Below are positions 2,948 to 38,600 of a stretch of 64,000 nucleotides of DNA, in pieces. Source of the DNA: Haloplanus sp. HW8-1 (GTDB lineage Archaea; Halobacteriota; Halobacteria; Halobacteriales; Haloferacaceae); NCBI RefSeq assembly GCF_023703795.1, contig NZ_CP098518.1:1178001-1242000 (forward strand), read 5' to 3'. Position numbers and translations under genes: made by a program. A model generated the notes under the pieces. It ran no database searches. It was not told the DNA's origin and worked only from the letters and a program-made list of their open reading frames with translations. Position 1 is the stretch's first letter; every line of letters begins with the position of its first letter.

Positions 2948-2948
2948 T

Positions 2949-3944: not shown

Positions 3945-4496
3945 GTCTATTGCCAGTCTATTCGCTTACGACACATGGACAGTGTGGGGGTATTAGACTG
4001 TTTCACGTCGGAAATCGGAGGTAAATGCAATCACGTCCAATACCACTGGCTCTGAGGGAGGGGGGTGACACTACAGCCTATGTTAGTCGTTCGCATACTT
4101 CTGAATCGACAGACGAATGGCACTCAGACCCCTCCCACCCTCAATAACCTGTCAGACAGCAAGAGTACGAAGCAAGCGAACTATAATATAACAAACTACT
4201 ACGCAAGCCTCAGGTTCTATTCAAGGAACCTTTCTCTGAATCCCTTTCATCCAAACCTCTTCAATACAATCTAACTCCGTCCCAAAGATTCTACGATACA
4301 GACATTCTACTGAGACGTTTCTCTCAAATGGAATATTCACGTAGAGTAGTTCTCAAAGGGGTACTGAACGGTGTGACACTAACCCCCTATATCGACAATA
4401 ACAGCCGTCTATCTTTGAAATACCATACGTAGAGCGAATATTATAGGTAGAGGGTACTGAGATAGCCACAGACGGCTAATAGAGCGAATTAAATTT

Positions 4497-4578
4497 GGAG
4501 TAAGTCCGTGGAGCCGATTCGTAGCATACGACTGCAAGGGTCAAAGCACTCAGACACACCTTGCAGGCACTTACTTCC
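4497..4578. other. Three-stem structured segment (possible ncRNA or origin structure)
   Basis: The outer arms GGAGTAAGT (4497-4505) and ACTTACTTCC (4569-4578) pair with a single bulge. Inside are a hairpin TCGTA-GCA-TACGA (4519-4531) and a second 8-bp stem CTGCAAGG (4532-4539) with CCTTGCAG (4559-4566). This is a three-way-junction layout of 82 nt. It is not a tRNA: there is no T-loop consensus and no anticodon arm. Because the pairing is symmetrical, the transcribed strand cannot be told. Confidence 0.45.
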
Positions 4579-4655
4579 CGATATAGGTTTCAACGGAATG
4601 TCTCTGAGCAATACGTCTCGAATATACATCTCAGACGAATCTCTACACACTGGCC

Positions 4656-4668
4656 TTCTACCGTAGAA
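4656..4668. promoter_or_regulatory. Palindrome TTCTACcGTAGAA, candidate operator
   Basis: Perfect 6-bp arms surround one central base. A related palindrome at 6760-6772 sits just upstream of another element gene, and the surrounding 30 bp are also similar (CCTTCTAC..GTAGA..CT..GG). A repeated palindrome in front of genes suggests a site for one of the element's ribbon-helix-helix or HTH proteins. Confidence 0.4.
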
Positions 4669-5024
4669 ATCTTTGGGCGATAGTTAGATTATACTGAAGA
4701 GGTTCATGATGAAGACCCTTTGAGAAATACGTTCGTAGAATAGAATCTCACGCTGGCGTAGTATGGTTCTTAATAACAGTTCGCTGGCTTCGTACTGGTT
4801 CAGTAGTAGGTACTTGGAAATGGGAGGGGGGTTTGATTGCCACTACTTTGTCGATCTAAGAGTATGTGAACCAATAACATAGGCGGTTGCTGTGTTGATT
4901 AGGGAACTTTCGGTATCAAACGCACACCCCAAACGTGCCTGTTAGGGCGTCAGTTCCCTGACAGTAGCAAGTAGACGGCTATCAAAGCAGTTCCACTAAT
5001 TACGCTGGTAGCAACGGACAGAGA

Positions 5025-5123
5025 TACCAGACAGAGTGTTTCCATACCTAATTTGTAATTACCAGACGACGGTCGGTTTACCAGATATATTCCCGAACGA
5101 ATCTGCTACAGAGTCGGTTTACC
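5025..5123. repeat. Short direct repeats upstream of the RHH pair
   Basis: TACCAGA occurs at 5025-5031, 5060-5066 and 5079-5085, and GTCGGTTTACC occurs at 5072-5082 and 5113-5123 (41 bp apart). They cluster 120-220 bp before the RHH microprotein genes. They could be iterons or operator half-sites; chance cannot be excluded for the 7-mers. Confidence 0.35.
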
Positions 5124-5247
5124 GTGCCTATCGCCCTTCCTGTCACAGATACATCCTCGAATGTATATTTACCCTATCTCATGGCGATTTCTGTTCCTCA
5201 ATTTCTCTTTAAGTGTTGACACTGTGATTACATGGTTATATGGAACG

Positions 5248-5397
5248 ATGGTCCGACGAAACCAAGTTCGACTTTCCGACGATGAGATTGAACAGTTAGA
5301 TGAATTGAAACAGACGCTTTACGGAACTACCTCGGTTAGTCGCGGGGAAGTCGTTTCCCGCCTAATGGAACTTTTCGAGACGGAGATTGATTCCTAA
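5248..5397 (+). CDS. Ribbon-helix-helix microprotein 1
   Basis: A 49-residue protein with the pattern of a ribbon-helix-helix repressor: a beta strand NQVRLSDDE, helix 1 IEQLDELKQTLYG and helix 2 SRGEVVSRLMELFETE. An upstream ATG at 5161 is in frame, but the ATG at 5248 gives the natural domain start. TTTAAG at about 5209-5214 is a possible TATA box. Its stop overlaps the next start in TAATG. It probably binds DNA as a dimer and may control the element. Confidence 0.65.
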   Translation: MVRRNQVRLSDDEIEQLDELKQTLYGTTSVSRGEVVSRLMELFETEIDS

Positions 5398-5543
5398 TGG
5401 GACGACAGTACGATAAGCACCTTCGAGTTTCGTCTCAGTGCAAAGGGGTTCTGGATGAACTGAAATCTGAAATCTATGAGAATCCAAAAGAGAAGACGTA
5501 TGGCGAATTGATTGCGTACCTCAGCGGATATTACTGCAAATAA
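5397..5543 (+). CDS. Ribbon-helix-helix-like microprotein 2
   Basis: A 48-residue frame starting at the ATG that overlaps the previous stop (TAATG at 5395-5399). Its layout repeats that of its neighbour: strand KHLRVSSQ, helix CKGVLDELKSEIY and helix TYGELIAYLSGYY. Tight overlap and similar architecture suggest a coupled pair, perhaps a heterodimer. It is too short for standard gene finders. Confidence 0.55.
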   Translation: MGRQYDKHLRVSSQCKGVLDELKSEIYENPKEKTYGELIAYLSGYYCK

Positions 5544-5584
5544 GTAGAATTTCATATTCGTAAACTAATTTGGAAATAAATAAA

Positions 5585-5794
5585 ATGAATGTTCACAATA
5601 CGACGATAGAAGACCTTGCCGAACAGTACGCCCACGGATACCGCGAAAGAGACGTGTTGATCGTACTATACTACGCTCAACGGAAATCCATGTCTCAGAT
5701 TGCTGACGGATTTGACGTTTCTACGCAGACTGTTCTCAAGTGGATGAAACGTCATAACCTTCCACGCCGTCAGCGAGGTGGTCACGGTGACTGA
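5585..5794 (+). CDS. Small helix-turn-helix protein
   Basis: A 69-residue protein whose centre (KSMSQIADGFDVSTQTVLKWMKRHNL) is a clear homeodomain-like helix-turn-helix of the resolvase/transposase type, followed by a basic tail PRRQRGGHG. The ATG at 5585 is preferred to 5570 because it removes an unlikely lead. Its end overlaps the next gene, so the two are translationally coupled. It is probably an element regulator. Confidence 0.7.
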   Translation: MNVHNTTIEDLAEQYAHGYRERDVLIVLYYAQRKSMSQIADGFDVSTQTVLKWMKRHNLPRRQRGGHGD

Positions 5795-6650
5795 ACTGTG
5801 GTCCGAATCGAATACTGGTTCAATCGACCACCCTGTCGACCATGATTATCTAAGCGATGACAGGGACGGAGGGTCCGTTAACGAGGAACAGAATCCTGAG
5901 CCGATTCCAGTCGAATACGACAGTTTACCAAAAGGATTTCACCAAATCGTAAGAGAACGATGGGAGCGTCAGAAACCGACTGATTGCGAACAGACTGAAC
6001 CACGCCACTCAGAGGTATCCGTCTCAGAAGACCACAATCAAACAACCGAATGGCGGGATTCTGAGCAATTTGAGTACGGTGGCACGAAAGACGATTCAAT
6101 GCGGACGACGTTCTTTGCGAAAGACTGCGACAGTATCCAAGGTGAATGGAACTTCAATCGACTTTGGAAAATGCAGTTCGGTAAACCGAGGCACGTCGAA
6201 CTAAATTATCTCGAAGTTCTTGAAGCCAAATCCGTGCAAATCTTTGATACTGATAGTGGGAGTGTCGTCAAGTTCAAAATGAGAGACGTGGATAGTGGGT
6301 GGCAGTCGCGTCAAGATCGGCGTGATTTCATCGACAGTCTCGTAGATATGTTGAACGTTCCTCAGACGGTTCGGTCGGAGGTGTGTGACGTGATTGAATC
6401 GGAATCGACAAATTACCAATCGGCGTGGAATCGCAACCACAGTGGTCACTGGGGCAAGGTGTTGGGGTACGTCGGTTCGTTGCTGAACCTTGACTGTAGT
6501 GATGAACAGTTTGCCGATATGGTAGCCGAGTTGAGAACAGTCGAAGATATGGATATGACTGACGAAGAGATTGAACAGGCAATTGAGTACGGTGAGAAGA
6601 GACTGAACGACCGTAACATCAAACCGATTTTCGGAAAACCGTCCGATTAG
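5787..6650 (+). CDS. Element protein of unknown function (287 aa)
   Basis: I do not recognise this protein. The first 100 residues are polar and look disordered (many Asp, Glu, Ser). The rest is a globular domain starting near TTFFAKDCDSIQGEWNFNRLWKMQFG, with a helical C-terminal part (VDMLNVPQTVRSEVCDVIES, then HWGKVLGYVGSLLNLDC). The GTG start at 5787 is chosen because GAGGTG lies 6 bp upstream; a GTG at 5778 is possible. The start overlaps the preceding HTH gene. No catalytic motif, membrane segment or signal peptide is visible. It is the largest unknown in the element and a candidate replication or regulatory protein by position only. Confidence 0.65.
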   Translation: MTELWSESNTGSIDHPVDHDYLSDDRDGGSVNEEQNPEPIPVEYDSLPKGFHQIVRERWERQKPTDCEQTEPRHSEVSVSEDHNQTTEWRDSEQFEYGGTKDDSMRTTFFAKDCDSIQGEWNFNRLWKMQFGKPRHVELNYLEVLEAKSVQIFDTDSGSVVKFKMRDVDSGWQSRQDRRDFIDSLVDMLNVPQTVRSEVCDVIESESTNYQSAWNRNHSGHWGKVLGYVGSLLNLDCSDEQFADMVAELRTVEDMDMTDEEIEQAIEYGEKRLNDRNIKPIFGKPSD

Positions 6651-6673
6651 GGACGGTTCTGATTCAAACAGAA

Positions 6674-6689
6674 TGTCCGTGTACGGACA
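6674..6689. promoter_or_regulatory. Inverted repeat TGTCCGT-gt-ACGGACA
   Basis: Perfect 7-bp arms around two bases, 24 bp after the stop of the 287-residue gene and about 115 bp before the next start. It could be a terminator hairpin or an operator. No T-tract follows it, which slightly favours an operator. Confidence 0.4.
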
Positions 6690-6759
6690 TGGCGACGGGT
6701 ATGTCCAACCACGCCGCCAATAGGATGTAACTATCTTCCAGAATCCTTACAGACAGACC

Positions 6760-6772
6760 TTCTACTGTAGAT
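6760..6772. promoter_or_regulatory. Palindrome TTCTACtGTAGAt upstream of the 94-aa gene
   Basis: Second copy of the TTCTACnGTAGAA-type palindrome (first at 4656-4668); positions 6761-6771 are perfectly symmetrical. It lies 32 bp before the ATG at 6805, a position that would block the promoter if bound. Confidence 0.42.
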
Positions 6773-6804
6773 TCTCTGGATAGCAGTTACATCTATGTAG
6801 AGAA

Positions 6805-7089
6805 ATGAAGGCAGTGAACAAACGAGTCTCTGCGGGGAGTACGATTCAGCTTGGAGAACAGATTGAGGCAAGTAGCCTTTCTGTTAATCGGGGGAATCGG
6901 ATTCTCAGGGCAGTCACGTCGGGCGAATCGGCTGAGTACGTATATCTCGAAGGGAGGTTCCAACACAGGGATGAAGTGGACATTCCCGATGCGTCTGAAA
7001 TCATAGAGGTGGTCGACGGGAATGGTATGTCGAACCCCGTGATTCGCTATCTCGTTCCGACGACGGTTTACCGAGGTGATTCGGAATGA
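6805..7089 (+). CDS. Element protein of unknown function (94 aa)
   Basis: A 94-residue soluble protein, predicted mostly beta (TIQLGEQIEASSLSVNRGN, AEYVYLEGRFQ, VIRYLVPTTVYRG). I do not recognise it. It has no signal peptide, membrane segment or metal-binding motif. Its stop overlaps the next start in ATGA, so the two are coupled. A palindrome lies directly upstream. Confidence 0.6.
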   Translation: MKAVNKRVSAGSTIQLGEQIEASSLSVNRGNRILRAVTSGESAEYVYLEGRFQHRDEVDIPDASEIIEVVDGNGMSNPVIRYLVPTTVYRGDSE

Positions 7090-7841
7090 ACCTCAGTGCA
7101 AGCACCATCGTAGACGTTCGTGATCGGGATGGTGAGTCTGCTGATAAACGCCCCTCTTACGTGGAAGACGCCTTGACTGAACCCAAGCGTCTCGGCTATC
7201 GGACGGGCCTTCCCGTGGTCGAGTCAGAGGATAATCCAGACGTGAAACTCGGTGGAAGCGTCCACGAACTGTATGGCAACTACGTTCGTAACGAGGATAT
7301 TCTGCTTCCCGATGCATCTTCGTTTCTCAGTGAACTGTTTGAATCCGATCTAATCAACTCGGTGGAGGATGCAAGTGAAGAGTTGAATACCGACGAATCT
7401 CTTATTCGGAAAGCCGTTGACCTACACGGAATTGAGATAGAAGACCATTCCACTGAACAGGAAACTTCGACGGAACAGTCGCTTACCCTACCCTCAGGCG
7501 AATCCTTCCCCTACAGTTTCCTGTCTGAACCAGTTTGGTCTGATAGCCGTGTTCTCACCCAACTGCTTGCCACGGACGGACTTGGAATCTCAGAGACGGC
7601 TACGTACCTATCCGACCAACTTGACGACGATGTAAGCACCTCCCAGATTCGTAAGGCGGCTGTCGAATGTGGGTTACTCGAAGGCAGTGTTAACGACGAC
7701 TCTAATTCCAGTAGTAACCTCTACACAAGTCCCATGAGTCGAAAGGGGTCACACAACACCCATACTGCTGGTTCAGGCAAGACCCTCAGTTCTCCGTGGG
7801 ACGATTCTGGTTCTGGTGACTCGAAAAACCCCTACAACTAA
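7086..7841 (+). CDS. Element protein with two HTH-like repeats (251 aa)
   Basis: A 251-residue protein of unknown function. Two segments resemble each other: about residues 78-118 (FLSELFESDLINSVEDASEE, then TDESLIRKAVDLHGIEI) and about residues 157-200 (VLTQLLATDGLGISETATYL, then STSQIRKAAVECGLL). Each looks like a helix-turn-helix with a final I-R-K-A core. The N-terminus (PSYVEDALTEPKRLGYRTGL) is a separate segment, and the last 50 residues are Ser/Gly-rich and probably disordered. It overlaps the preceding gene by 4 bp. It is probably a DNA-binding protein. Confidence 0.6.
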   Translation: MNLSASTIVDVRDRDGESADKRPSYVEDALTEPKRLGYRTGLPVVESEDNPDVKLGGSVHELYGNYVRNEDILLPDASSFLSELFESDLINSVEDASEELNTDESLIRKAVDLHGIEIEDHSTEQETSTEQSLTLPSGESFPYSFLSEPVWSDSRVLTQLLATDGLGISETATYLSDQLDDDVSTSQIRKAAVECGLLEGSVNDDSNSSSNLYTSPMSRKGSHNTHTAGSGKTLSSPWDDSGSGDSKNPYN

Positions 7842-7850
7842 CCTACCGAT

Positions 7851-8162
7851 ATGTCTTCCAAGAAACAACGGTTGGTGAAAGACAAATTGGATGACGGTAG
7901 TTACGTCTTCGACAGAGAATCCCTGTGTGAGAAAGAAATCGTTCAATACGTCTGTAGCCTTGTAGAGAACGGTGTCGGAATCGCAGTAACCCCGTTGAAC
8001 GTTCAGCAATTGATTCAGTCACAGTATCAAACCACAGGTGGAATCTGTCTCTTCGAGGTGGCTACGGCTATGGAAATCCACCTGTCTGATTTCAATTGTA
8101 CTGACGACCACTATTCCACGAAAATGGAGAACGATATACATCGGCATCAATACGAACAGTGA
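7851..8162 (+). CDS. Element protein of unknown function (103 aa)
   Basis: A 103-residue protein starting MSSKKQRLVKDKLDDGSYVF, with a helical middle (EKEIVQYVCSLVENGVGIAV, then VQQLIQSQYQTTGG). It may be another winged-helix fold, but no certain motif is seen. It follows the preceding gene by 9 bp and is the last convincing gene of the element. Its stop codon lies inside the first arm of a repeated inverted repeat (8153-8166). Confidence 0.5.
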   Translation: MSSKKQRLVKDKLDDGSYVFDRESLCEKEIVQYVCSLVENGVGIAVTPLNVQQLIQSQYQTTGGICLFEVATAMEIHLSDFNCTDDHYSTKMENDIHRHQYEQ

Positions 8163-28076: not shown

Positions 28077-29270
28077 TCAGGTCGACTCCGCGTCGTCGCC
28101 CTCGTCGGTGCCACCCTCATCGTTCCCCTCGTCATCCCCGCATCTCACGGTCGTATCGTCCCCGCCGTCGCCCCCGACCATCGCATCGAGGCCGGCCGTC
28201 GGCGGTTCGCACACGTACAGGATCCCCTCGTGTGGAACGTAGAGACTGCCGTCCTCAGGGTCCTCGAACACGCGGGCGTCGAAGTCGATGGCGGTGTCGA
28301 CGAGACCCGCGAGCGTGTCGATCTGGATCCGCGGGCGGTCGCGAACGGTCGAGGGGAGCCGTGCGGTCGTGATCCAGTCGTCGAACTCGTCCCGGGCCGA
28401 CTGGAACGCCAGTGCCGCACGCTCGGCGTCGGAGACGGCGAACCGATCGTCGTACCGTCCGTACGCGAGTCCGACGATCCCGACGATCCCGGCGATCAGC
28501 GCGATCGGCCCGCCGATTCGGTAGGGTGGCCCGTACGTTCGCTGCCGTGTAACCCGCTCGGTCGTGGACCCATCGAGCGTCTCGCCCTCCACGGCACCGG
28601 GTTGGTACGTGGTCCCGCTAACCGACATCGGAAGCCGGTAGTCGGCCGTCCGCGATACATCGTTCCCGTTGACGCGCCCCTCCAACTCCACCGTCGAGAC
28701 GACGAGCATCTGTACGGATCCGGGCGTTCCACCCAACCGCTCGGAGATGTTCGCCATCCGATCGTACGTCCGACTGACGTTGCGCTCGAACGCGAGTTCG
28801 ACCGACTGACCCGGGGAAACGCCGGTCGTGCTCGCCGTCCCGAGTGGTTCGGTGAGCCGCCAGTATTCGACGCGCTCCCCGTCACCCTCCGTCGACTGCG
28901 CTTCGACGGCCCGGAGCACCAGCGTCTGCTGGATCGTCACCGCCAGCGCCCCGCCCTCCGTCGCCCGGTACTCGAATCGGAACGTCCCCTCGACGAGCGG
29001 ACTGATCGAGAGGAAGTACGCGGGTCGGTCCGAGAGTTCGGTACCGATCGGATACAGCGGGTTTGACTCCGTCACCGCCGCGGCCAGTTCGTACGTCCCG
29101 TTGGCCTCCCAGGAGGACACCTGGCGTTGCTCGGTCGTCGTTCCGGGAGCCTCGTACGCGGAGTACGTCGCGTATCCGCCGCCAGCCGTCAGTACCACAC
29201 CGAACAGGACCACGACCACGAACCAGCGGTCCAGCAGTATCCGTCCGCGCACCCCCCACTCCCGTGACAT
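28077..29270 (-). CDS. DUF5305 membrane protein
   Basis: A 397-residue protein with one N-terminal helix (RWFVVVVLFGVVLTAGGGYATY), a large beta-rich external domain (residues 45-250), a second helix (GGPIALIAGIVGIVGLAYG) and a cytoplasmic tail rich in Asp and Glu. This matches the haloarchaeal DUF5305 family, usually encoded beside an archaeal signal peptidase I, as here (about 55 bp away). It is probably an assembly or anchoring factor for the secreted proteins of this locus; that is inference from context. Confidence 0.8.
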   Translation of the reverse strand: MSREWGVRGRILLDRWFVVVVLFGVVLTAGGGYATYSAYEAPGTTTEQRQVSSWEANGTYELAAAVTESNPLYPIGTELSDRPAYFLSISPLVEGTFRFEYRATEGGALAVTIQQTLVLRAVEAQSTEGDGERVEYWRLTEPLGTASTTGVSPGQSVELAFERNVSRTYDRMANISERLGGTPGSVQMLVVSTVELEGRVNGNDVSRTADYRLPMSVSGTTYQPGAVEGETLDGSTTERVTRQRTYGPPYRIGGPIALIAGIVGIVGLAYGRYDDRFAVSDAERAALAFQSARDEFDDWITTARLPSTVRDRPRIQIDTLAGLVDTAIDFDARVFEDPEDGSLYVPHEGILYVCEPPTAGLDAMVGGDGGDDTTVRCGDDEGNDEGGTDEGDDAEST

Positions 29271-29325
29271 GTGCCCCCCTTTTCCCGGTACCCCTACAAG
29301 AATCTTGAGGGAGCAGGTCCCCGGA

Positions 29326-30483
29326 TCAGCCGTACCGGTTCAACAGACGTCCGAGGGTCGAGACTCCGTCCCGCGAGCGCGAACGTGCTCGGAGCCGTCC
29401 GGAGCCAACGAGCCACGTCCCGAGCAGGTAGAAGGGGACACCGATGACGGCGTCGACGAGCACGACCGGCACCCACGGGTGGAGACGGTAACCGGCATCG
29501 ATCACCGAAGTCGGCAGGATTGCGAGATACCGATACTCCGAGACGTACCGGCGATAGTAGCCCGTCTCCGGTGGAGCGGACAGCGTGATCGTCGCGTTCG
29601 TATTCGACCGGCCGGGGACGTGGAGTCGTTCGGGATCGGTCGTCACGCCCTCGCTCGCGGGCGTCAGATAGACCACGACGGGGACGAGGCCTGCGTTGGG
29701 GACGCGATAGGTGAGCGTCTCGGCGCTCCCCTGTCGGATGATCGTCGGACTCTCCGAGTCGAACTCAGCGCTCACGACGCCGAACTCTTGGGTCCCTCCG
29801 GGAACGACCATCGACGCCGTCGCGGTGAGGACGACCAGCGCCGCGAGTCCGGCGACGATGGTCCGTGTCGAGAGCCCCCGATCTCGGTCTCGTGACCGGG
29901 TCCGGTCGCGCTCCGAGCCGTCGCTCGCGAACAGATCGAACACGTAAAGCAGCGCCGAGAGTCCGAGCAATAGGTACGTGAGTCCCTGGGTTCCGAGCAG
30001 CGAGCGACTCCCCGTCACCGACGCCAAGAGTCGCTGGGTGTCGGTGACCGCGCTCTGCAGCCCCATCACCGCCGTACCCATGTGTGGGATCACGACGACC
30101 GAACCACCGACCTGCCACGCCTTGGCGACGATCTGGGCGTCCTTCACGGGGGGCTCGTCGCCGTCCTGGTCGGTGAAGGGATTGGCGTCGCCGCGGGTCA
30201 CGTAGCCACGCTCCGTCTGGTCGACGACCCGGTGGGTCGTCAGACCACCGCCCTGGATCCGTTCGGCTCTGAACACGATGACGTCGCCTTCCTCGACGTG
30301 GCCGTCGATCGCGGTCGGAATGGCGACGAATCCGTCACCGGGATCCAGCGTCGGTTCCATGCTTCCAGTCTCGACGAATCCGAGCAACACCGGATAGCCG
30401 AGCACCTGTCCGGCGACTAACGCGACGACGACGAGAACGGCGAGTGCCTCGCCCGCGACCGAGAGCGTGCGTCGCGGTGACAT
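29326..30483 (-). CDS. Signal peptidase I, archaeal (SipW-like)
   Basis: A 385-residue membrane protease of family S26B. The catalytic Ser is in ETGSMEPTLDPGD (about S41), the His in LTTHRVVD (about H84, replacing the bacterial Lys) and the Asp in TRGDANPFTDQD (about D99). Unusually, the protease domain is followed by two more helices and an external beta domain (SAEFDSESPTIIRQGSAETL onward), then a further helix and a basic tail. It sits in a locus with five SipW-type secreted proteins, so it is the likely dedicated peptidase for them. The frame upstream of 30483 is not coding. Confidence 0.87.
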   Translation of the reverse strand: MSPRRTLSVAGEALAVLVVVALVAGQVLGYPVLLGFVETGSMEPTLDPGDGFVAIPTAIDGHVEEGDVIVFRAERIQGGGLTTHRVVDQTERGYVTRGDANPFTDQDGDEPPVKDAQIVAKAWQVGGSVVVIPHMGTAVMGLQSAVTDTQRLLASVTGSRSLLGTQGLTYLLLGLSALLYVFDLFASDGSERDRTRSRDRDRGLSTRTIVAGLAALVVLTATASMVVPGGTQEFGVVSAEFDSESPTIIRQGSAETLTYRVPNAGLVPVVVYLTPASEGVTTDPERLHVPGRSNTNATITLSAPPETGYYRRYVSEYRYLAILPTSVIDAGYRLHPWVPVVLVDAVIGVPFYLLGTWLVGSGRLRARSRSRDGVSTLGRLLNRYG

Positions 30484-30551
30484 TCGGGATACGGGACGCT
30501 GGCGCCGAACCGGTAAAAAACCCTCCGCCAGCCGGGGCCTCCCGGAGGCCG

Positions 30552-31442
30552 CTACCCGGTCGGCTCGTCCGCCGCCCGGTCGGCGCCGAACGGGCCCACC
30601 GCTAGGCTCACGTACGGACCGAGGAACCCGAGGCAGAATCCGAGTAGGTGTACGTAGTCGTTCGGGACGGTCGCCACGTGTGAGGTTCCAGCGCCGAACC
30701 CGACGACCGGGAATCCGAGACACGACACTGTCGCGACGACGAACAGTTCGAGCCAGCCTCGCGTCGACCCCGCCGTTCCGGGACGCCCGACTCGGCGACG
30801 GTCGATATCGAGGGCGCGAACGTAGTACGCGCCGAGTAGTCCACAGGTCAGACCGACCCCGAGACTCGTCGTCGACGGCGGCAGGGCGACGACCGTCGCG
30901 ATCGCAAGCACGACGAAGAACACGGCGGGGGCGTGCCGGTAGTCGACCCACGGGACGAGCCTGGATCGGGCGTACAACGGGAGCAGGACGGCGAGAAGAC
31001 CCGCGAACGCGGCGGTCACGCCCGAGAAGCCGTAACCGACGGCGCGTCGGGGGACCGCGAGATTCAGCGCCGAGAGCACGGGCGGGAGCGCCAGCAGGTA
31101 CGTCGCCGTCGCGGCACCGAACAGTCGCCGTCGATCGGCGAGCGTCGCGAGCAGGTACGAGAGGCCGGCGAAAACCACGTATCCGAGCAGGTTGGACGCG
31201 AGGTGTGAGACCCGGAAGTGGACGAAATGTGCCGTGAACGCCGTCGAGAGGGAGGGATCGGTGTAGACGAACGTCAGCGACTGGCGGCGCGACTCCGGCA
31301 ACAGAAAGATGCCGAGTACCGCTGCCGGCACGGCCGCGAGCGCCGCGCAGTCCCGCATTCGGACGAGGCCGGCGACGACGACGCGGAACGGGGGGTCGGC
31401 GGCGGAGCGAAGCGACACGGATCGGTCACTCTCCCTCCCCAC
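30552..31442 (-). CDS. Rhomboid-type intramembrane serine protease
   Basis: A 296-residue protein with about seven membrane helices. Rhomboid signatures are HFVHFRVSHLASNLLGY in helix 2, the catalytic Ser in GYGFSGVTAAF (about S140) and the catalytic His in DYVHLLGFCLGFLGPY (about H265). It lies between the signal peptidase gene and the CARDB-protein gene and overlaps the latter's 3' end by 17 bp. In this setting it may release or quality-control membrane-anchored surface proteins; that is inference. Confidence 0.83.
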   Translation of the reverse strand: MGRESDRSVSLRSAADPPFRVVVAGLVRMRDCAALAAVPAAVLGIFLLPESRRQSLTFVYTDPSLSTAFTAHFVHFRVSHLASNLLGYVVFAGLSYLLATLADRRRLFGAATATYLLALPPVLSALNLAVPRRAVGYGFSGVTAAFAGLLAVLLPLYARSRLVPWVDYRHAPAVFFVVLAIATVVALPPSTTSLGVGLTCGLLGAYYVRALDIDRRRVGRPGTAGSTRGWLELFVVATVSCLGFPVVGFGAGTSHVATVPNDYVHLLGFCLGFLGPYVSLAVGPFGADRAADEPTG

Positions 31443-32970
31443 CGCGTTGCCGGCGGACCAGCCAGACCACGAGCACTGCGACGAGGGCGAACAGCCATCC
31501 CATCGACGACAGCGAGAACGTCGCGGGTTCGCCGACCGGCTCTCCCGCCCGGTCCGCGGGAGTCGGTGACGGTGGGGCCGACGAGGGAGAGAGTGCCGGC
31601 GGCCCGCTCGCCGCTCCCTCCACCGGTGGGTCGGCAGCGCCCGACGCGGTACCGGGCGATCGGGAGGTGATCGAGGCCGGCGTCGACCTCGGTGCGTCGA
31701 CGACGAGCGTCCCCGAATCGACGCCGCCGACGCTCACCGCGTACCGTCCCGGCGATTGAGGGGCGACGGCAAACCGGATCGTCGTCGACTCGCCGGGGGC
31801 CAGTTCGACGGCACGAGCTGCGGTCCGCTCACCGTCGAGCGAGACGACGAACGTACGCTCGCCGGGGACCAGGCCGTCGTTTCTCACCGAGACCGTCGTC
31901 GTCGCCGACTCGCCTAGCGTGACGGTCGAGCGGGACAGGTCGGCACCGGTGACCCGGAGAGCGGACGCCCGGACGCCAACCACGAACGTCGAGAACCCTG
32001 GCGACTGGGCTTCGAACACCACACGGCCGTTCCGCGTGCCGACGTGCCTCGCGTCGAGGGATCGCCAGCCACGGCCGTCGTTGCGTCGCACTACGAGGCG
32101 GTCGACGGTGGTCCGTCTGGCGTCGAAGTAGGCCGGCGCGGCGCTGAACCGGAAGGCGGCGGACTCGACAGAGCCACCGTCCTCCACCTCGACTGCACCG
32201 AGGGGTCTGACGCCGACATCGGCGTCCGGACGCGCCGTCCCGTCGAGTACCCGTACGTCGACCGACATCGGCCCGCCGTCACCGGTCACGATCAGTTCGT
32301 CGAGGGTGAGCGTCCCCGTCTCGACGGCGTCGACTACCAGTCGGTCGGCGTCGAGCGTGACCGGCGCCCCGGCTGGAGCGTTCGTCACGGTGAACTCCCG
32401 AACGTCGTTGCTCGGCGCGTACGTCCGAATCGAACGGACGGGACCGGACGCGGGAGCGACGTCGGCTGCTCCGACTTCGACGTCTTCCGGTTCGGCGATT
32501 CGGGCGTGGACCGTGAGATCCGCCAACAGTTCGTCGGTGGACCCGGTGGCGTCGATCCGCATCCCCACGGTCGCCGACTCGTCGGCCGACAGAACGACGG
32601 CGTTCGACTCCGATTCGATCGGCCGGCCGCTCGCTCGGACGGTGATCGACTCCGAGTTGTGCGTGAGCCAGATCCGCGCGAATCGCTCGCCACCGTAGTG
32701 AACGACGAACACGTCGTCGACGGTCGTGAGGGTACCGTCGCCGACGCCGTTACCGTGGAGGTTCGGATTCCTCGGGGTGAGATCGACGACGAGGTCGCCG
32801 TCGACGACAGAGGCGTAGGCGCCGTTCGCCCCCGACGACGGGGAGAGTGACACGTCTTCACCGACGGGATCCGTCGACCCGGGAGCGAGCGAGGCGCCGG
32901 TTCCGACGGCAACGGAGACCGCCGACAGCGTCAGGACGATCACAGCGAGACGCGAGATGGCTCGACTCAT
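31426..32970 (-). CDS. Secreted CARDB/PGF-pre-PGF protein with C-terminal anchor helix
   Basis: A 514-residue exported protein. An N-terminal signal (LAVIVLTLSAVSVAVGTGAS) is followed by a DUF1102-like domain (about 45-130), a PGF-pre-PGF-like domain (RRTTVDRLVVRRNDGRGWRS, then QSPGFSTFVVGVRAS), and a CARDB domain (VTLGESATTTVSVRNDGLVP, then GESTTIRFAV). A Ser/Pro linker then leads to a C-terminal helix (LSSMGWLFALVAVLVVWLV) and RRQRGG. It is a cell-surface protein and possibly the membrane base of the fibre encoded here. Confidence 0.8.
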   Translation of the reverse strand: MSRAISRLAVIVLTLSAVSVAVGTGASLAPGSTDPVGEDVSLSPSSGANGAYASVVDGDLVVDLTPRNPNLHGNGVGDGTLTTVDDVFVVHYGGERFARIWLTHNSESITVRASGRPIESESNAVVLSADESATVGMRIDATGSTDELLADLTVHARIAEPEDVEVGAADVAPASGPVRSIRTYAPSNDVREFTVTNAPAGAPVTLDADRLVVDAVETGTLTLDELIVTGDGGPMSVDVRVLDGTARPDADVGVRPLGAVEVEDGGSVESAAFRFSAAPAYFDARRTTVDRLVVRRNDGRGWRSLDARHVGTRNGRVVFEAQSPGFSTFVVGVRASALRVTGADLSRSTVTLGESATTTVSVRNDGLVPGERTFVVSLDGERTAARAVELAPGESTTIRFAVAPQSPGRYAVSVGGVDSGTLVVDAPRSTPASITSRSPGTASGAADPPVEGAASGPPALSPSSAPPSPTPADRAGEPVGEPATFSLSSMGWLFALVAVLVVWLVRRQRGGEGE

Positions 32971-33020
32971 CGGACTGGCATCGGTGGACGAATGGATTCC
33001 TACCGCTTCAGAGTACGGTG

Positions 33021-33052
33021 ATTGAACCGATTCTCACACCCATTGAACCGAT
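33021..33052. repeat. ATTGAACCGAT direct repeat upstream of the CARDB gene
   Basis: Two identical 11-mers at 33021-33031 and 33042-33052, 21 bp apart (two helical turns), 50-80 bp before the CARDB gene start. A further pair of ACATGT palindromes lies at 33081-33096. These are candidate regulator sites in this 221-bp spacer. Confidence 0.4.
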
Positions 33053-33191
33053 CGTCGAACGACAGCGACTCGCTCCGATCACATGTCGAGACATGTAACA
33101 CGTCGAGAGCGTCCCAGCGGACGAACTCGTCGGGAAGCCGACCCTCCATCCAGCGTCGTTACCGTGTCCCGGTCGCGAATGGGCCGGACGG

Positions 33192-34466
33192 CTACTCGGC
33201 GGTCGACGCGCCGCCCAGTTCGCCGATCGAGGTGACCTCGTAGCCCTCCCCCAGTCCGCTTGCTGCGTCTTCCGCAGCCGTGGTATCGAGAAAGTACAGT
33301 TCGGCGATCTGCGGCGGTCCCGCGGGATCGGACCGTTCGTAGAGAAGTGTGGCGGATAGACTCCCGGTCCCGTCGCCAGTGTCGACAGTCGCGCCGGTGA
33401 CGTCGTGAGCCGGACCCTCCGATAGACCGTCGAGCGGGAACCGCACGTCCCAGGTCCCGTCCTCGTCGGTATCGACCCGCGTGCCGCGTCTCTCTGGGAC
33501 GTGGAACGGCAGTTCCTTCGGCTGTTCCTCCGTGTAGAGGATCGGTGTGTCCTCGATCGTGTTGGTCCCTTCGAGCCGGATGCCCCGAGCGGTCGGGGTC
33601 GGAGTTGGGTACTCCCCGGACCACGCCGAGACGGCGATGCCGCCCCAGTCGTTGTTCCGGGTAGTGATCCCGTCGAGCCGTACGTCCACGCAGTTCGTGA
33701 GGAACACGCCGGTACCGCCGGTGGAACCCGCGTTCTCGTTCGCTCCGTCGGCGACGACGTTCGTCAGCTCCGCACCGACGACGCTGTTGAGATCGATCTG
33801 GGAAAGCGACGATCCCGCAACCGTGACGTCCGCGAGGCGGACGTTCTGGCATCCTGCGATCTTGAGCCCGAAGTACGACGCCGGATAGGAGTCGTCGGCC
33901 GACGGTTGTACCGGCCCCTCGAGCGTGAACGATTCGAGCGTGGTGCCGTTCGCCTCGACCTGGAACCCGTACGGGTTCGTGAACTGCCCGTCGTCGCTCG
34001 CGTCGATGACGACACCGCTCCGACTGGTTCCACGGATCGTGAGGCCGGTCGTTCCGTCGACCACCGGCCGCTCCTCGTAGGTCCCCGACTCCACGACGAT
34101 CAGGTCGCCGTCGGTCGCGCCGTCGGCGCCGTTGACCGGGTTCGTCCCGTCGATCGCATCCTGAATCGCGTTGAATCCCGGACGGTCGCCGAGGGTCTTG
34201 CTCACCAGAACCGCGTCGGGGTACGCGGGGAGTTCCTCGCCCCCGTCACCCGACTCTCCGATGGTCACGCCGAACGCCTCCTCCACCGCGGTGACCTCGT
34301 TCGGGGTGAGCACGTCGGCCAGCCACCCCGGGTCGGTCTGCAGGATCCCGCGGGTTGTCCGGTCGAGGACGTCGTTCGGCGTCCCGGACTCGAAGCTCTC
34401 CCAGGTGGTGCTGGGTGTCCCCTGGCTCTGATACAGCGCCCGCATCGGCCCGTGTCTGTCGGGCAT
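33192..34466 (-). CDS. Right-handed parallel beta-helix protein
   Basis: A 424-residue protein. Residues about 85-300 show parallel beta-helix (PbH1) repeats: FNAIQDAIDG, GTYEERPVVDGTTGLTIRGT, NVRLADVTVAGSSLSQIDLN, CVDVRLDGITTRNNDWGG. This begins like pectate-lyase-type surface proteins. No signal peptide is visible at the N-terminus (MPDRHGPMRALYQSQGTPST), which is odd for its context. Its start overlaps the stop of the upstream SipW-type gene (TAATG), so the two are coupled and probably act together, perhaps as a tip or accessory of the surface fibre. Confidence 0.75.
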   Translation of the reverse strand: MPDRHGPMRALYQSQGTPSTTWESFESGTPNDVLDRTTRGILQTDPGWLADVLTPNEVTAVEEAFGVTIGESGDGGEELPAYPDAVLVSKTLGDRPGFNAIQDAIDGTNPVNGADGATDGDLIVVESGTYEERPVVDGTTGLTIRGTSRSGVVIDASDDGQFTNPYGFQVEANGTTLESFTLEGPVQPSADDSYPASYFGLKIAGCQNVRLADVTVAGSSLSQIDLNSVVGAELTNVVADGANENAGSTGGTGVFLTNCVDVRLDGITTRNNDWGGIAVSAWSGEYPTPTPTARGIRLEGTNTIEDTPILYTEEQPKELPFHVPERRGTRVDTDEDGTWDVRFPLDGLSEGPAHDVTGATVDTGDGTGSLSATLLYERSDPAGPPQIAELYFLDTTAAEDAASGLGEGYEVTSIGELGGASTAE

Positions 34467-34990
34467 TACGTGGCCTCCCCCGTGACGGTCATCGTGTCGT
34501 CGATCCCGATATCCGGACTCGTGCCGCCCGGGAACGCGTCCACGACGAGGCTGTACGTTTCCGCGTCACCCGGCGTGAGCGTCACCGACGGGAAGCTCGT
34601 CTCCGGAACGAGCAACACGATGAGCGTGTTGCCCGAGTCCGTGTCCACGAACGTCAGCGGCGTGATCTCTACCTCGATCTCCTGGGTCCCTTGGTTGCGG
34701 ACCTCGAAGAGGTCCGCGATGACGGTGACCGCATCGGTGTTGACGCCCTGGCCGCCCGCGCCGGTGGCGTTGTCGCTCGTGAGATCGATACCTAACTGGC
34801 CGTCGCTCGTGTCCGTATACGGCGCGTTTGGGCCGGTGGCTTCCAGCGCGAGGAACGCGTTCGCGTCGTCGGCCACCTGAACCGCGACGTCGCGGTCGGC
34901 CTGCACGCTCGTGAACGCGCCCGTTCCGGTGACGATCGCCCCGCCACCGCCCAGTGCCCCCATCGCCGCGAGGAGTTGTCGTCGATTCAT
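34466..34990 (-). CDS. SipW-type secreted protein (TasA/DUF1102-like) 1
   Basis: A 174-residue secreted protein. The N-terminus MNRRQLLAAMGALGGGG is a short signal followed by the family motif GTGAFTSVQADRDVAVQVAD. The rest is a predicted beta-sandwich (LFEVRNQGTQEIEVEITPLT). Four related genes lie at 35207, 35905, 36637 and 38022. The start at 34990 places the signal at the N-terminus. It is coupled to the beta-helix gene by TAATG. By homology to TasA-type subunits it may form or cap a surface fibre. Confidence 0.78.
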   Translation of the reverse strand: MNRRQLLAAMGALGGGGAIVTGTGAFTSVQADRDVAVQVADDANAFLALEATGPNAPYTDTSDGQLGIDLTSDNATGAGGQGVNTDAVTVIADLFEVRNQGTQEIEVEITPLTFVDTDSGNTLIVLLVPETSFPSVTLTPGDAETYSLVVDAFPGGTSPDIGIDDTMTVTGEAT

Positions 34991-35060
34991 GAGTAATCGA
35001 ATCTCCCGCCCGGGCGGGTACGTCGTTCGTTCGATCGCTGTCCGGCGTACCCTCCCGGGA

Positions 35061-35090
35061 GAAGCCCACCGGCGGAGTCGAACCGCCGTG
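35061..35090 (-). repeat. T-arm-like hairpin repeat, copy 1
   Basis: A 30-bp sequence identical to 36571-36600. On the minus strand it contains GGCGG-TTCGACT-CCGCC, a perfect 5-bp stem with a seven-base T-loop, then GGTGGGC, like the T-arm and acceptor 3' side of a tRNA. In this copy GCCCACT at 35097-35103 can pair with GGTGGGC to give a seven-pair acceptor-like stem. It lies 71 bp before the ATG at 34990. Confidence 0.6.
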
Positions 35091-35206
35091 CTCCGAGTGG
35101 GCGAATCGGCTCGTGTCTCGATCCATCCGCCGACGGTCGCGCTCGTAGTCCGGCGGCGTACCATCGGTCCGCGGTTGTCCGCAGGAGACACCAGCACCTC
35201 CGCACC

Positions 35207-35779
35207 TCAGCACGTCACCTCCGCATCCGCGTTGATCACCAGCGCCTCGCCGTCCCCGCCCGGCCGCGTGGCAAACAGGTCGTCACCGTCGGAGACACCG
35301 TGAGTTCGGACCACGAATCCCACGCGGGTCGACTCCCCCACGTCGAGACAGACGGCCTCGTCCCGCCCGACGATCCCTCGACTCGGATCGCCACCCCGGA
35401 AGAACTCGATCGCGGGGTCACCGGTCGCCGCCACCGCGGCATCGACGGTCACCCAGACGCCGACCGATTGGGTTCCGGCGTTTCGGATCTCGAAGACGTC
35501 GTCGAGGACGGTCGTCGCGTTCCGGTTGACGCCCGTTCCGCCGCCGAGGGTCGGGTTTTCCGCACTCAGATCCAGCGACAGTACCCCATTCTCAGTCCGG
35601 ACGTACTCGCCGTTCGAACTCCCCTCGCAGGGGCCGAGTTCGAGGAACGATTCGGTGTCGCTCGCCACTGCGACCGACACGCTGCGCTTGGCTTCTGCGC
35701 TCGTGAACGCGCCCGAACCGACGGCGCCGCTCGTGCCCGCCATGGCGCCGAAACCGAGCAGCAGTCGTCGTCGTTTCAT
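35207..35779 (-). CDS. SipW-type secreted protein (TasA/DUF1102-like) 2
   Basis: A 190-residue secreted protein: MKRRRLLLGFGAMAGTSGAV signal, then GSGAFTSAEAKRSVSVAVAS and a beta-rich domain with the family segment FEIRNAGTQSVGVWVTVDA. Two Cys (in GPCEGSSN and at the very C-terminus, EVTC) plus one in AVCLDVG are unusual among its paralogs and could form a disulphide. It sits between paralogs 1 and 3 in the same direction with a T-arm-like repeat 21 bp upstream of its ATG. Confidence 0.77.
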   Translation of the reverse strand: MKRRRLLLGFGAMAGTSGAVGSGAFTSAEAKRSVSVAVASDTESFLELGPCEGSSNGEYVRTENGVLSLDLSAENPTLGGGTGVNRNATTVLDDVFEIRNAGTQSVGVWVTVDAAVAATGDPAIEFFRGGDPSRGIVGRDEAVCLDVGESTRVGFVVRTHGVSDGDDLFATRPGGDGEALVINADAEVTC

Positions 35780-35799
35780 GGTCGTGGTCGCCGTCGATC

Positions 35800-35826
35800 G
35801 AAGCCCACCGGCGGAGTTGAACCGCC
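35800..35826 (-). repeat. T-arm-like hairpin repeat, copy 2
   Basis: A 27-bp copy of the repeat with one base change that falls in the loop (TTCAACT instead of TTCGACT), leaving the GGCGG/CCGCC stem and GGTGGGC intact. It is 21 bp before the ATG at 35779. No good acceptor-like 5' partner is seen here. Confidence 0.55.
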
Positions 35827-35904
35827 TCGCTGCGACCCCCAAAGGTCGGAGGTGCTGCGTGCCAGCGTGGGGGAAGGTCGTACCGGTCGCCGAGGTGCTC
35901 GCGG

Positions 35905-36546
35905 CTACAGGTCGGCGAAGGTTGCTGCGGCGCGGAACGTCACTGGCGTCGAATTGATCGTCGACGTGTCGGGCGATCCGAAGAAGAACGCACCGACGTT
36001 GTTTAGCGTCTCACCCGGGGTGAGGTAGACGAGGTCCGGGTTCCCGTCGCTGTCGGCGTCGGGAGCGGTGTCGATGTTCAACTGACCGTCGTTGTTGTAG
36101 TTCCCGGCGCTGGCATCGTAGTTTGAACCGCTACCCGACCCGGTGAAATCGGGGTCTTCGTGGTAGAGCGCGAAATTGGCGTTGGTGAGCGTGGTTCCAC
36201 TGCCATCGCCACCGTAGCCGACGTAGACGCCCTGCGTCCCCTGGTTCGTGATCCTGAGGAGGTCGTCGAACTCGGTGGTCGCGTTGTCGTTGATCCCCTG
36301 GCCGTTGCCCGGGGCGTCGGTACTCGTGAAGTCGAGACTCACGGCGTTGCCCGACGTATCCACGTATTCGTTGGCGTTCGGGCTGTTGCTCTCGGGCTCG
36401 ATAGCCAGGAACGCGTTCGCGTCGTCGGCGACGCTGACGCTGACCGTCCGATCCGCCTGCACGCTGGTAAACGCACCCGTACCGATGGTGGCCGCCCCGG
36501 CGGCGGCGAGCGATCCCATCCCGGCGATGAACTTGCGTCGTTGCAT
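35905..36546 (-). CDS. SipW-type secreted protein (TasA/DUF1102-like) 3
   Basis: A 213-residue secreted protein. MQRRKFIAGMGSLAAAGAAT is the signal, followed by GTGAFTSVQADRTVSVSVAD and a beta-sandwich with LLRITNQGTQGVYVGYGGDG. A Gly/Asp/Asn-rich loop (SGSGSGSNYDASAGNYNNDG) and several Asp-Asn repeats suggest calcium binding or a flexible surface. It is very similar at its N-terminus to paralog 4, which points to recent duplication. Confidence 0.78.
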   Translation of the reverse strand: MQRRKFIAGMGSLAAAGAATIGTGAFTSVQADRTVSVSVADDANAFLAIEPESNSPNANEYVDTSGNAVSLDFTSTDAPGNGQGINDNATTEFDDLLRITNQGTQGVYVGYGGDGSGTTLTNANFALYHEDPDFTGSGSGSNYDASAGNYNNDGQLNIDTAPDADSDGNPDLVYLTPGETLNNVGAFFFGSPDTSTINSTPVTFRAAATFADL

Positions 36547-36570
36547 GGTTTTTCAGTCGCCCTCTCGGGC

Positions 36571-36600
36571 GAAGCCCACCGGCGGAGTCGAACCGCCGTG
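36571..36600 (-). repeat. T-arm-like hairpin repeat, copy 3
   Basis: Identical over 30 bp to copy 1 and 25 bp before the ATG at 36546. GCCCGCC on the minus strand (36633-36639 region) could pair with GGTGGGC through one G-T pair, at a longer distance than in copy 1. Confidence 0.58.
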
Positions 36601-36636
36601 CCCGAACTTCGGCGCTCCTGCGTGGGTGTGGCGGGC

Positions 36637-37233
36637 CTACGGGGATCCGCCGTTCTCCGCGACGAAGGTGACCGTTCCCGACAGACTCGCGGGTCCCTGT
36701 CCCGTCGTGTCGACCTCAAGGTCGAGGACGATGCTGTCTCCGGGCGCGAGCGTGTACACGTCGACGTTACCAGCGTTGCTCCCGTTGTAGGCCAGTTGGT
36801 CGGATCCGGCGGACCCACCAGTCTCGGCGGCGTTGGTGGAGTCAGTCGATATCGTTACCGACGCACTGCCGGTGTTGAGACTCGAGATGTCGACCCAGAA
36901 GTTGACGTTCTGCGTGCCCCGGTTGGTCACCAGCAACAGATCGTCGATCCGTGTCACCGCGTCGGGATTGAACCCATCTCCCAGGTCGCTCGTCCCGTTC
37001 GAACTGCTGAAGTCGAAGCTGATTTCGCCACTCGACGGGGATCCGGTCACGTACGCCTGGGAGTTTGCGCTCCCGGTCACCCTGTCGAGTCCCAGGAAAG
37101 CGTTCGCGTCACCGGCGACCTGCACGGCCACACTTCGGTCGGCCTGAACGGTCGTGAACGCGCCGGTGCCGACAGTCGCCGCTGCTCCAGCTGCGACCGA
37201 TCCTATCGCCGCGATGAACTTTCGCCGTTGCAT
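36637..37233 (-). CDS. SipW-type secreted protein (TasA/DUF1102-like) 4
   Basis: A 198-residue secreted protein: MQRRKFIAAIGSVAAGAAAT signal, GTGAFTTVQADRSVAVQVAG, and a beta-sandwich with LLVTNRGTQNVNFWVDISSL. The start at 37233 is preferred to an upstream Met because it matches paralog 3. It is the first gene of the leftward run and starts opposite the DUF7344 regulator gene, 255 bp away. It is a likely major subunit by its promoter-proximal place; that is inference. Confidence 0.78.
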   Translation of the reverse strand: MQRRKFIAAIGSVAAGAAATVGTGAFTTVQADRSVAVQVAGDANAFLGLDRVTGSANSQAYVTGSPSSGEISFDFSSSNGTSDLGDGFNPDAVTRIDDLLLVTNRGTQNVNFWVDISSLNTGSASVTISTDSTNAAETGGSAGSDQLAYNGSNAGNVDVYTLAPGDSIVLDLEVDTTGQGPASLSGTVTFVAENGGSP

Positions 37234-37240
37234 GTGTGCC

Positions 37241-37262
37241 ACGTGCCCCGTCCGGAGCACGT
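37241..37262. promoter_or_regulatory. Inverted repeat ACGTGC-n10-GCACGT in the divergent spacer
   Basis: Perfect 6-bp arms at 37241-37246 and 37257-37262, immediately before the first SipW-type gene and in the spacer shared with the divergent DUF7344 gene. It is a candidate operator or mRNA-leader hairpin. Confidence 0.4.
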
Positions 37263-37488
37263 CTGTCCCCTGCACATCCTCCCTCCTTGTTGTAATCCGA
37301 TTGAATGGATGATAACGGCCCGTAGATCCGCTTCAACGGGACGTTGACGTGTTCCAAGGACAGTTTGATCGCTTTCAGGGCGGGACTGAGCGACGGCTGG
37401 CCGTTCCTGAAACGACAGTCGGCAGCGGTTACTTATGTAGCGTGCCGGGATTATTCCTTCCCGAAACCGAAGGGGGAACTTCGAACGC

Positions 37489-38025
37489 ATGAGCCTTGCA
37501 CGAGACGACGTATACGAAGTACTGAGCAACCGACGGCGGCGGTTCGTCATCCACTACCTGCGGCGGAACGACGCGCGGGCGGCGCTGGGGGCCCTTGCCG
37601 AGCACGTCGCCGCGTGGGAGAACGACATCGACGTCGCCGCGGTGGGTTCGGATGCACGTAAGAACGTCTACACGTCGCTTCAGCAGTTCCACCTGCCGAA
37701 GATGGAGGACCTGAACCTGGTTCGCTTCGATCGGCGGGCGGGAGAGGTGGAACTCACCGACGAGGCCGACGAGGTCGACGTCTACCTCGAAGTCGTCGAG
37801 GGGAACGACGTGCCGTGGAGTCTCTACTATCTCGGGATGGGGGGACTGGCGGGACTCGTGACACTCGGCCACGCGCTCGGGGCACCCATTCTCGCAGGGT
37901 TGAGCGATGCCAGCTGTGCCATGTTCACGATCACGGCCATCGCGGCACTGGCCTCGATCCACACGTACTACACGAGAAAGATGCGCCTGGGATCCGACGG
38001 AGCACCACCAGAGATCGACGGATGA
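37489..38025 (+). CDS. DUF7344 winged-helix membrane regulator
   Basis: A 178-residue protein. The N-terminus (DDVYEVLSNRRRRFVIHYLR, then NVYTSLQQFHLPKMEDLNLV) is the DUF7344-type winged helix common in haloarchaea. Two C-terminal hydrophobic helices (SLYYLGMGGLAGLVTLGHAL and AMFTITAIAALASIHTYYT) place it at the membrane. Its stop overlaps the next start in ATGA. It is divergent from the SipW-type run, so it is the probable regulator of the fibre locus. Confidence 0.8.
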   Translation: MSLARDDVYEVLSNRRRRFVIHYLRRNDARAALGALAEHVAAWENDIDVAAVGSDARKNVYTSLQQFHLPKMEDLNLVRFDRRAGEVELTDEADEVDVYLEVVEGNDVPWSLYYLGMGGLAGLVTLGHALGAPILAGLSDASCAMFTITAIAALASIHTYYTRKMRLGSDGAPPEIDG

Positions 38026-38600
38026 GTCGTCGGGCCCGGCATCTCGTCGCGATACTCGCCCTCTGTGTAGCGGCGAGTTCGGCGCTTGGTGTCGGGAGTT
38101 ACGGTTCGGTAACCGCCGATCGAGGGCTCTCGGTCGCCATCGTCGATAACGACGACGCTTACATCGGATTCGCGGACGACCTGCAGTGCGGGATGGGTCA
38201 CGGTGTCGGCGACAACGGGGAGTTCGTCAGAAACCAGTTCGTCGGCGAGACTGTCATCGATCGGTTCGTCGTGCGGGCGACCGCCGGTGGCGGCGAGGTT
38301 CGCGTCGGGACGGGCGGACCGACCCACCAACTCGCCTCGGGGCAATCGGTGACCCTGACGTTCGTCGGTCCGTACCGCCCCGGAGACGGCGCCGATATCC
38401 AGGTAAAACCGCCACACGGCAACGTTTCGGGCGCCGACAGCCTGACCGTCCGCGTCCTCGATGCCGTCGGGGCGAACGTCTCCGTCTCCGGGCCGGTACG
38501 GACGTTCGACGTCGACTGTCCGGACGGCGGACCGTCGAACGCGACGGCTGGTGAGACGGGACACGAGGCCGTCGGGACGCCCCGAGCGCGCGGCGGGTGA
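38022..38600 (+). CDS. SipW-type secreted protein 5, coupled to the regulator
   Basis: A 192-residue secreted protein with signal HLVAILALCVAASSALGVGS and the family motif shape SYGSVTADRGLSVAIVDNDD, aligning with GAFTSVQADR..V in its four paralogs across the spacer. A beta domain follows, ending in a polar tail. It overlaps the DUF7344 gene by 4 bp, so both are made from one mRNA. A regulator coupled to one subunit could sense export or assembly; that is speculation. Confidence 0.72.
   Translation: MSRRARHLVAILALCVAASSALGVGSYGSVTADRGLSVAIVDNDDAYIGFADDLQCGMGHGVGDNGEFVRNQFVGETVIDRFVVRATAGGGEVRVGTGGPTHQLASGQSVTLTFVGPYRPGDGADIQVKPPHGNVSGADSLTVRVLDAVGANVSVSGPVRTFDVDCPDGGPSNATAGETGHEAVGTPRARGG

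Follow-up and report, generated by a model that had tools for sequence, protein, structure and literature searches.

A Tafi-type pilus locus of Haloplanus with a rhomboid protease that probably processes the tail of the fiber anchor

Introduction

Here we describe a gene cluster of the haloarchaeon Haloplanus sp. HW8-1, located at positions 28077–38600 of a 64,000-nucleotide stretch of contig NZ_CP098518.1 (positions 1,178,001 to 1,242,000 of its forward strand; hereafter the window, in whose numbering coordinates are given unless stated otherwise). An earlier note, made from the DNA letters alone, had proposed that the cluster encodes a TasA-like surface-fiber system equipped with its own signal peptidase and a rhomboid protease. 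Computational follow-up shows that its four tandem secreted proteins are Tafi-type pilins and that the protein with a CARDB domain is a TafF-like fiber anchor composed of a pilin domain, immunoglobulin (Ig)-like domains and a C-terminal tail, and it indicates that the rhomboid probably carries out the C-terminal processing of this anchor as a rhombosortase-like protease.

Organization and conservation of the locus

The main block of genes occupies the minus strand from 28077 to 37233 and comprises four tandem subunits with twin-arginine translocation (Tat) signals (S1–S4), a signal peptidase, a DUF5305 protein, the rhomboid, the CARDB protein, and a beta-helix gene. Descending from 37233, the gene models read S4, S3, S2, S1, beta-helix protein, CARDB protein, rhomboid, signal peptidase, and DUF5305 protein. 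A divergent pair on the plus strand, encoding a helix-turn-helix (HTH) regulator and a fifth secreted protein (S5), fills 37489–38600. Gene models and family scans located every gene that had been named from the letters.

Conservation was read from 40 rhomboid neighborhoods and 80 named peptidase loci, with genes called by a home-made caller and the rhomboid and anchor sought again in six frames where it mattered. The arrangement of an S5–HTH pair divergent from subunits, anchor, rhomboid, peptidase and DUF5305 gene, in that order, was found in many genera. The gene set as a whole recurs in many haloarchaea, across families, and peptidase and subunits occur together, so that the objection raised in advance by the earlier note, namely a gene order conserved without this co-occurrence, falls away. 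Many other loci hold the subunits, peptidase and DUF5305 gene without the rhomboid, some of them also without the anchor; since the core set exists in this form, the rhomboid is an addition to the core.

The signal peptidase (29326..30483, minus strand) is of the archaeal, SipW-like type I. It scores above the cut-off of TIGR02228 and matches the SipW model at E 3.5e-9. The SipW model is also matched by all 23 relatives (23/23), in which Ser41, His84 and Asp99 are invariant. These results uphold the idea of a dedicated SipW-type peptidase within the cluster, and a search of its own genome at E 0.01 returned no further copy of the peptidase or of the rhomboid. Next to it, the DUF5305 membrane protein (28077..29270, minus strand; Pfam DUF5305 E 5e-49) closes the conserved operon, a position that is constant in nearly all cassettes.

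Fiber subunits

All four subunits lie on the minus strand and match the NCBIfam model TafE at E-values from 3e-16 to 7e-20: S1 (34466..34990; TafE 2.9e-16, and DUF1102 above its cut-off), which carries a Tat twin-arginine (RR) motif and the segment GAFTSVQADR, S2 (35207..35779; TafE 1.5e-19, DUF1102 4.6e-7), S3 (35905..36546; TafE 7e-20) and S4 (36637..37233; TafE 5.9e-18, with a DUF1102 match). The segment common to them reads GAFTSVQADRDV in S1, GAFTSAEAKRSV in S2, GAFTSVQADRTV in S3 and GAFTTVQADRSV in S4. In an alignment of 59 rows, containing the window subunits and other haloarchaeal relatives, R3, G24, A25 and R33 are invariant, and the profile built from it has a single match among solved pilins, 9P0A, at E 2.2e-34. 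This entry is named by Foldseek as the Tafi pilus of Natrinema sp. J7-2; the part of the literature that was searched yielded no paper naming it. Given the TafE matches together with the profile match to a solved Tafi pilin (2e-34), the identity of the subunits is far beyond chance.

The fold points the same way. An AlphaFold model of S4 (mean predicted local distance difference test, pLDDT, 74.7; predicted template modeling score, pTM, 0.68) has its best match in 9P0A (Z 10.8), followed by the Pyrobaculum bundling pilus (7UEG; 9.2) and the Sulfolobus thread (7PNB; 8.6); unrelated chains begin at Z 7.2. A jelly-roll, Ig-like fold is common to the model, AbpA and the thread. The claim of a TasA-like surface fiber, which was to be abandoned if predicted structures lacked a TasA-like fold, is borne out by both the profile and the model. 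The TasA-like reading is right, yet the kind of fiber is already described in haloarchaea (Tafi; 9P0A; NCBIfam TafA, TafC, TafE and TafF).

Two features of the N-termini bear on export and assembly. An RR motif is present in 57 of the 59 subunits, which suggests Tat export of S1–S4, and the mature start and the first core strand lie 21 residues apart in most subunits, never closer. By analogy with known fibers, this constant 21-residue segment would fit donor-strand exchange between subunits.

The window system is Tafi-type but sister to the named Tafi, because its subunits fall under the TafE equivalog cut-off (best score 71 bits against 155) and the sampled genomes of the genus gave no TafA match at E<=1e-10. 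An assignment of S1–S4 to TafC or TafA was considered and rejected, the matches being weak and mostly N-terminal. Five secreted paralogs had originally been counted; four stand as tandem subunits, whereas S5 (GSYGSVTADRGL; weak TafE match, 6.5e-4) is just a distant relative. Elsewhere in the same genome, a lone Taf-like subunit lies outside any cluster (L012:8255-8836, that is C1:590255-590836). At a further site (L011:8752-12403, C1:2071752-2075403), an S5–HTH pair diverges from the genes for a TafE-like subunit and for a 546-residue fusion of pilin domain and beta-helix, and gene calls over the 20 kb read there gave neither a peptidase nor a rhomboid nor an anchor.

The fiber anchor

The anchor gene (31426..32970, minus strand; Pfam CARDB 1.9e-6) encodes a signal, a pilin domain, a PGF-pre-PGF region, a CARDB domain and a C-terminal transmembrane segment (TM). 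The N-terminal pilin-like domain (residues about 32–161; 32488..32877, minus strand), which had not been seen in the earlier note, aligns with the subunits by hhalign (99.4%, E 1.5e-21). In a model of the whole protein (mean pLDDT 84.9, pTM 0.57), residues 32–159 match 9P0A at Z 9.9; the Foldseek list was filled by the CARDB region and Ig-like chains, and the pilin domain emerged in a second look. NCBIfam TafF matches 12 of 34 anchor relatives.

Before its first core strand the pilin domain has a short N-terminal segment, and across anchors the distance from the mature start to that strand is 10–22 residues with a median of 15, against 21 in subunits. On this basis the anchor would receive a strand but be unable to donate one, which would place it at the end of the fiber, and its membrane tail would make that end the base, a putative polarity. 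The C-terminal signal (31429..31530, minus strand) reads EPATFSLSSMG, followed by a TM and RRQR, and is a divergent form of the motif EP-x-G-[FIL] described below.

The rhomboid and its paired tail

The rhomboid gene (30552..31442, minus strand, with a putative GTG start) shares 17 bp with the anchor gene and encodes a class-I intramembrane protease in which the catalytic GxSG serine, the histidine and HxxxN are all intact. H75, H80, G138, S140, G141 and H265 are invariant. Every class-I rhomboid in the comparison retains the second histidine and the serine of GxSG; the Asn of HxxxN differs in a few, and two truncated gene calls stop short of this motif. Among curated families rhombosortase comes closest, matching 23 of 30 relatives (best 3e-7, far under the cut-off), ahead of Pfam Rhomboid with 15 of 30. 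The score is 24.1 bits against a rhombosortase equivalog cut-off of 84, and a sequence search of the PDB with the rhomboid alone gave no match.

Proteins encoded beside the rhomboid have a common tail, E-P-x-G-[FIL] followed by a TM and then RR. Its carriers include unrelated and giant proteins (1060, 1973, 2976, 3701, 4381 and 4476 residues), and many of them, not all, have CARDB or PGF-pre-PGF modules. Among five loci encoding giant surface proteins of 2405–4476 residues with EP-x-G-[FIL] (L197, L200, L201, L202 and L203), a class-I rhomboid adjoins in four.

Of 264 genes near rhomboids, 36 encode the tail, compared with 5 (two of them anchors) of 803 other genes. Loci with an anchor-family match split 74/17 with the rhomboid against 4/20 without it (Fisher P 7e-9). 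A tail profile of 24 rows, searched in 292 Halobacteria genomes at E<1e-4, gave 71 matches in 58 genomes, all 58 of which have a class-I rhomboid, and none in rhomboid-less genomes. For tail-bearing genomes outside the training set the rhomboid is present in 34/34 (hypergeometric P 2e-25, kinship ignored). Most matches (58 of 71) lie within 2.5 kb of a rhomboid; the other 13 lie farther away, as expected if one enzyme has several targets. At rhomboid-less loci the TafF relatives mostly end otherwise, for example in NRELSPATTAALAPP. The codistribution and neighborhood of protease and tail known for rhombosortase thus recur here, though for the motif EP-x-G-[FIL]. For the rhomboid subfamily this pairing has good support; for the window, the support comes from orthology and position, its own motif aside. 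By analogy, we propose a haloarchaeal rhombosortase-like anchoring system with putative cleavage.

A T-arm-like hairpin

A hairpin resembling a tRNA T-arm, GGCGG-TTCRAYT-CCGCC-GGTGGG with the 7-base T-loop of tRNAs, is conserved before S1, S2 and S3. Pattern search places it on the minus strand at 35065..35087 (upstream of S1, 75 nucleotides before the ATG), 35804..35826 (upstream of S2) and 36575..36597 (upstream of S3). Copies occur in 47 of 97 genomes, at 1–8 per genome, and a reversed control pattern was never found. Good stems are present in 73 copies, of which script labels place 28 before Taf subunits and 15 before AYFSD-type TasA-like genes; the others, read by eye, are mostly before anchors, TasA-like genes (ALFSD, AYFND) and other signal-bearing genes. 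Among matches with two mismatches, both in the stem, all 18 keep five pairs (18/18), spread over five stem types of which GACGG/CCGTC accounts for 14. Rfam at a permissive E gave only a chance miRNA match, and the hairpin is absent from it. Single-copy RNA folds no better than shuffles in two of the three copies, so the case for the element rests on covariation. It could act as RNA or, alternatively, as a DNA operator.

The beta-helix gene, the regulator and other features

The beta-helix protein (33192..34466, minus strand; weak beta-helix/NosD matches) lacks a signal peptide; a match to it occurs in only one of 11 other genomes of the genus and is confined to residues 1–76. The closest relative, locus L042 (13154-13384, minus strand), has these first 76 residues at 66% identity without the beta-helix part, which suggests from sequence comparison that they are a swapped module. 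The stop codon of S1 and the ATG of the beta-helix gene share one base (TAATG, window 34464-34468), and in L042 a similar pair is directly adjacent, in frame. The overlap possibly means that the two genes are translated in a coupled manner or that a partner without a signal is co-exported, and one may guess that the beta-helix protein is exported by Tat hitchhiking with S1. A role as a core component is ruled out by the missing signal peptide and the poor conservation even within the genus. Both the rhomboid and the beta-helix protein had been put forward as new steps; the rhomboid does mark a step absent from the sources consulted, whereas the beta-helix protein is a poorly conserved local add-on.

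On the plus strand, the HTH regulator (37489..38025; DUF7344 2.9e-29) has hydrophobic C-terminal segments and a conserved position divergent from the subunits, and S5 (38022..38600) is coupled to it. Homologs of S5 adjoin the HTH gene in many loci, and the pair probably regulates the operon. Outside the cluster, window positions 2001-8000 have a G+C content of 0.45-0.53 against about 0.67 elsewhere, possibly foreign DNA.

Proposed mechanism and its rivals

We consider it likely that the products of this locus assemble a Tafi-type pilus and anchor it, with the rhomboid processing the anchor tail. S1–S4 would be exported as pre-pilins, through Tat judging by the RR motif, and the SipW-like peptidase would cut them just before or at GAF. 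The freed 21-residue N-terminal segment would then donate a strand to the neighboring subunit, as in 9P0A, AbpA and TasA and in keeping with the modeled fold. At the membrane-proximal end, the TafF-like protein would accept a strand, its Ig-like domains leading to the C-terminal TM. The rhomboid would recognize EP-x-G-[FIL] before the TM, as the genomic pairing indicates, and may cleave within the membrane. By analogy with rhombosortase, it would pass the anchor to a lipid or another envelope acceptor. A broader proposal, that a haloarchaeal rhombosortase-like system serves EP-x-G-[FIL] signals, anchoring both Tafi-type pili and giant surface proteins, and that a T-arm-like cis-element controls fiber mRNAs or processes them, has in our judgment an even chance of being right.

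Several observations weigh against processing of the anchor tail. The window tail, EPATFSLSSMG, lacks the near-invariant Gly, as does that of L042, and the best tail-profile match in the window's own genome is weak (E 0.0145). A strong tail match is absent in 31 of the 89 genomes with a class-I rhomboid, and some rhomboid loci of one family (L075, L085 and L101) carry TafF-like proteins without a C-terminal TM. Four loci have the motif and no local rhomboid; two are likely chance matches away from a TM and two are real signals. The contig of L210 has a rhomboid at another position, and L261 is in a fragmented metagenome bin with a rhomboid on another contig (L222). The rhomboid scores under curated cut-offs; moreover, the P-values assume more independence than related genomes provide, and the training rows of the profile came from rhomboid neighbors.

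If the rhomboid does cleave the anchor, the outcome could be release rather than attachment, the TM being cut to shed fibers for dispersal. Rhomboids commonly release ectodomains, and the pairing evidence fits cleavage with any outcome. Set against this, the nearest curated family is a sorting enzyme, the tripartite tail ending in RR resembles sorting signals and the pairing reaches giant surface proteins; these observations are compatible with release, which we nevertheless regard as unlikely. The tail could instead be a divergent PGF-CTERM signal for archaeosortase A, leaving the rhomboid to other work. The tripartite layout is indeed alike, many targets have a PGF-pre-PGF domain, and one rhomboid neighbor (L072, 2748 residues) ends in a real PGF-like tail. 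We think this improbable: the PGF-CTERM model gave no match at E<=1 on the window anchor or on seven partner proteins, strong tail matches go with the rhomboid, with none in rhomboid-less genomes, and TafF relatives in rhomboid-less loci mostly have no motif.

Least probable, in our view, is an ordinary Tafi operon in which the rhomboid is a passenger with a membrane quality-control duty, even though Tafi-type clusters in other families occur without it and Haloferax rhomboid mutants show broad surface phenotypes (PMC11985538). The cassette rhomboids keep their catalytic residues and have a fixed place after the anchor gene, and motif and rhomboid are associated over 104 loci.

Comparison with known systems

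The closest described system is the Tafi (Tat-fimbriae) of haloarchaea, summarized in PMC12687288. The window shares with Tafi homologous subunits with Tat-like signals, a TafF-like anchor and the fold; it differs in adding the rhomboid and the EP-x-G-[FIL] tail, in the lack of a TafA match in the genus and in subunits that fall under the TafE cut-off. Sampled Tafi-type loci of several other families are without a rhomboid. TasA–SipW–TapA of Bacillus subtilis is alike in its peptidase-dependent subunit, N-terminal donor strand and minor anchoring or nucleating subunit; TapA is proposed to provide the first donor strand, in contrast to the window anchor with its shortened N-terminus, and no rhomboid is named in the TasA operon (PMC9674648). 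The AbpA bundling pili of Pyrobaculum calidifontis (7UEG) and the Sulfolobus thread (7PNB), compared by fold and sequence only, have a similar subunit fold at 7% sequence identity.

For the rhomboid, the nearest parallel is rhombosortase and GlyGly-CTERM, a dedicated pair that is adjacent when there is one target (PMC3237569). Both systems join a rhomboid-family protease, one-to-one or one-to-many, to motif–TM–basic tails encoded by neighboring genes (PMC3237569; PMC6219818), whereas the window system is haloarchaeal, uses EP-x-G-[FIL] rather than SGGS and scores 24 against 84 bits. PGF-CTERM and archaeosortase A offer a tripartite haloarchaeal tail that is alike, with a different motif and a non-homologous partner enzyme. 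In Haloferax, rhomboid mutants have been described with no substrate reported, and identification of natural rhomboid substrates in haloarchaea is named as future work (PMC11985538); the part of the literature searched held no report of a sorting signal for a haloarchaeal rhomboid. The pairing of rhomboid and tail is the new part, a putative cell-surface sorting route in archaea apparently not described before in the sources searched. If true, it would provide a concrete class of rhomboid substrates in haloarchaea, with a readable signal and a neighboring gene, propose how a TasA/Tafi-type fiber is attached to the cell, and possibly place a second C-terminal sorting route beside that of archaeosortase.

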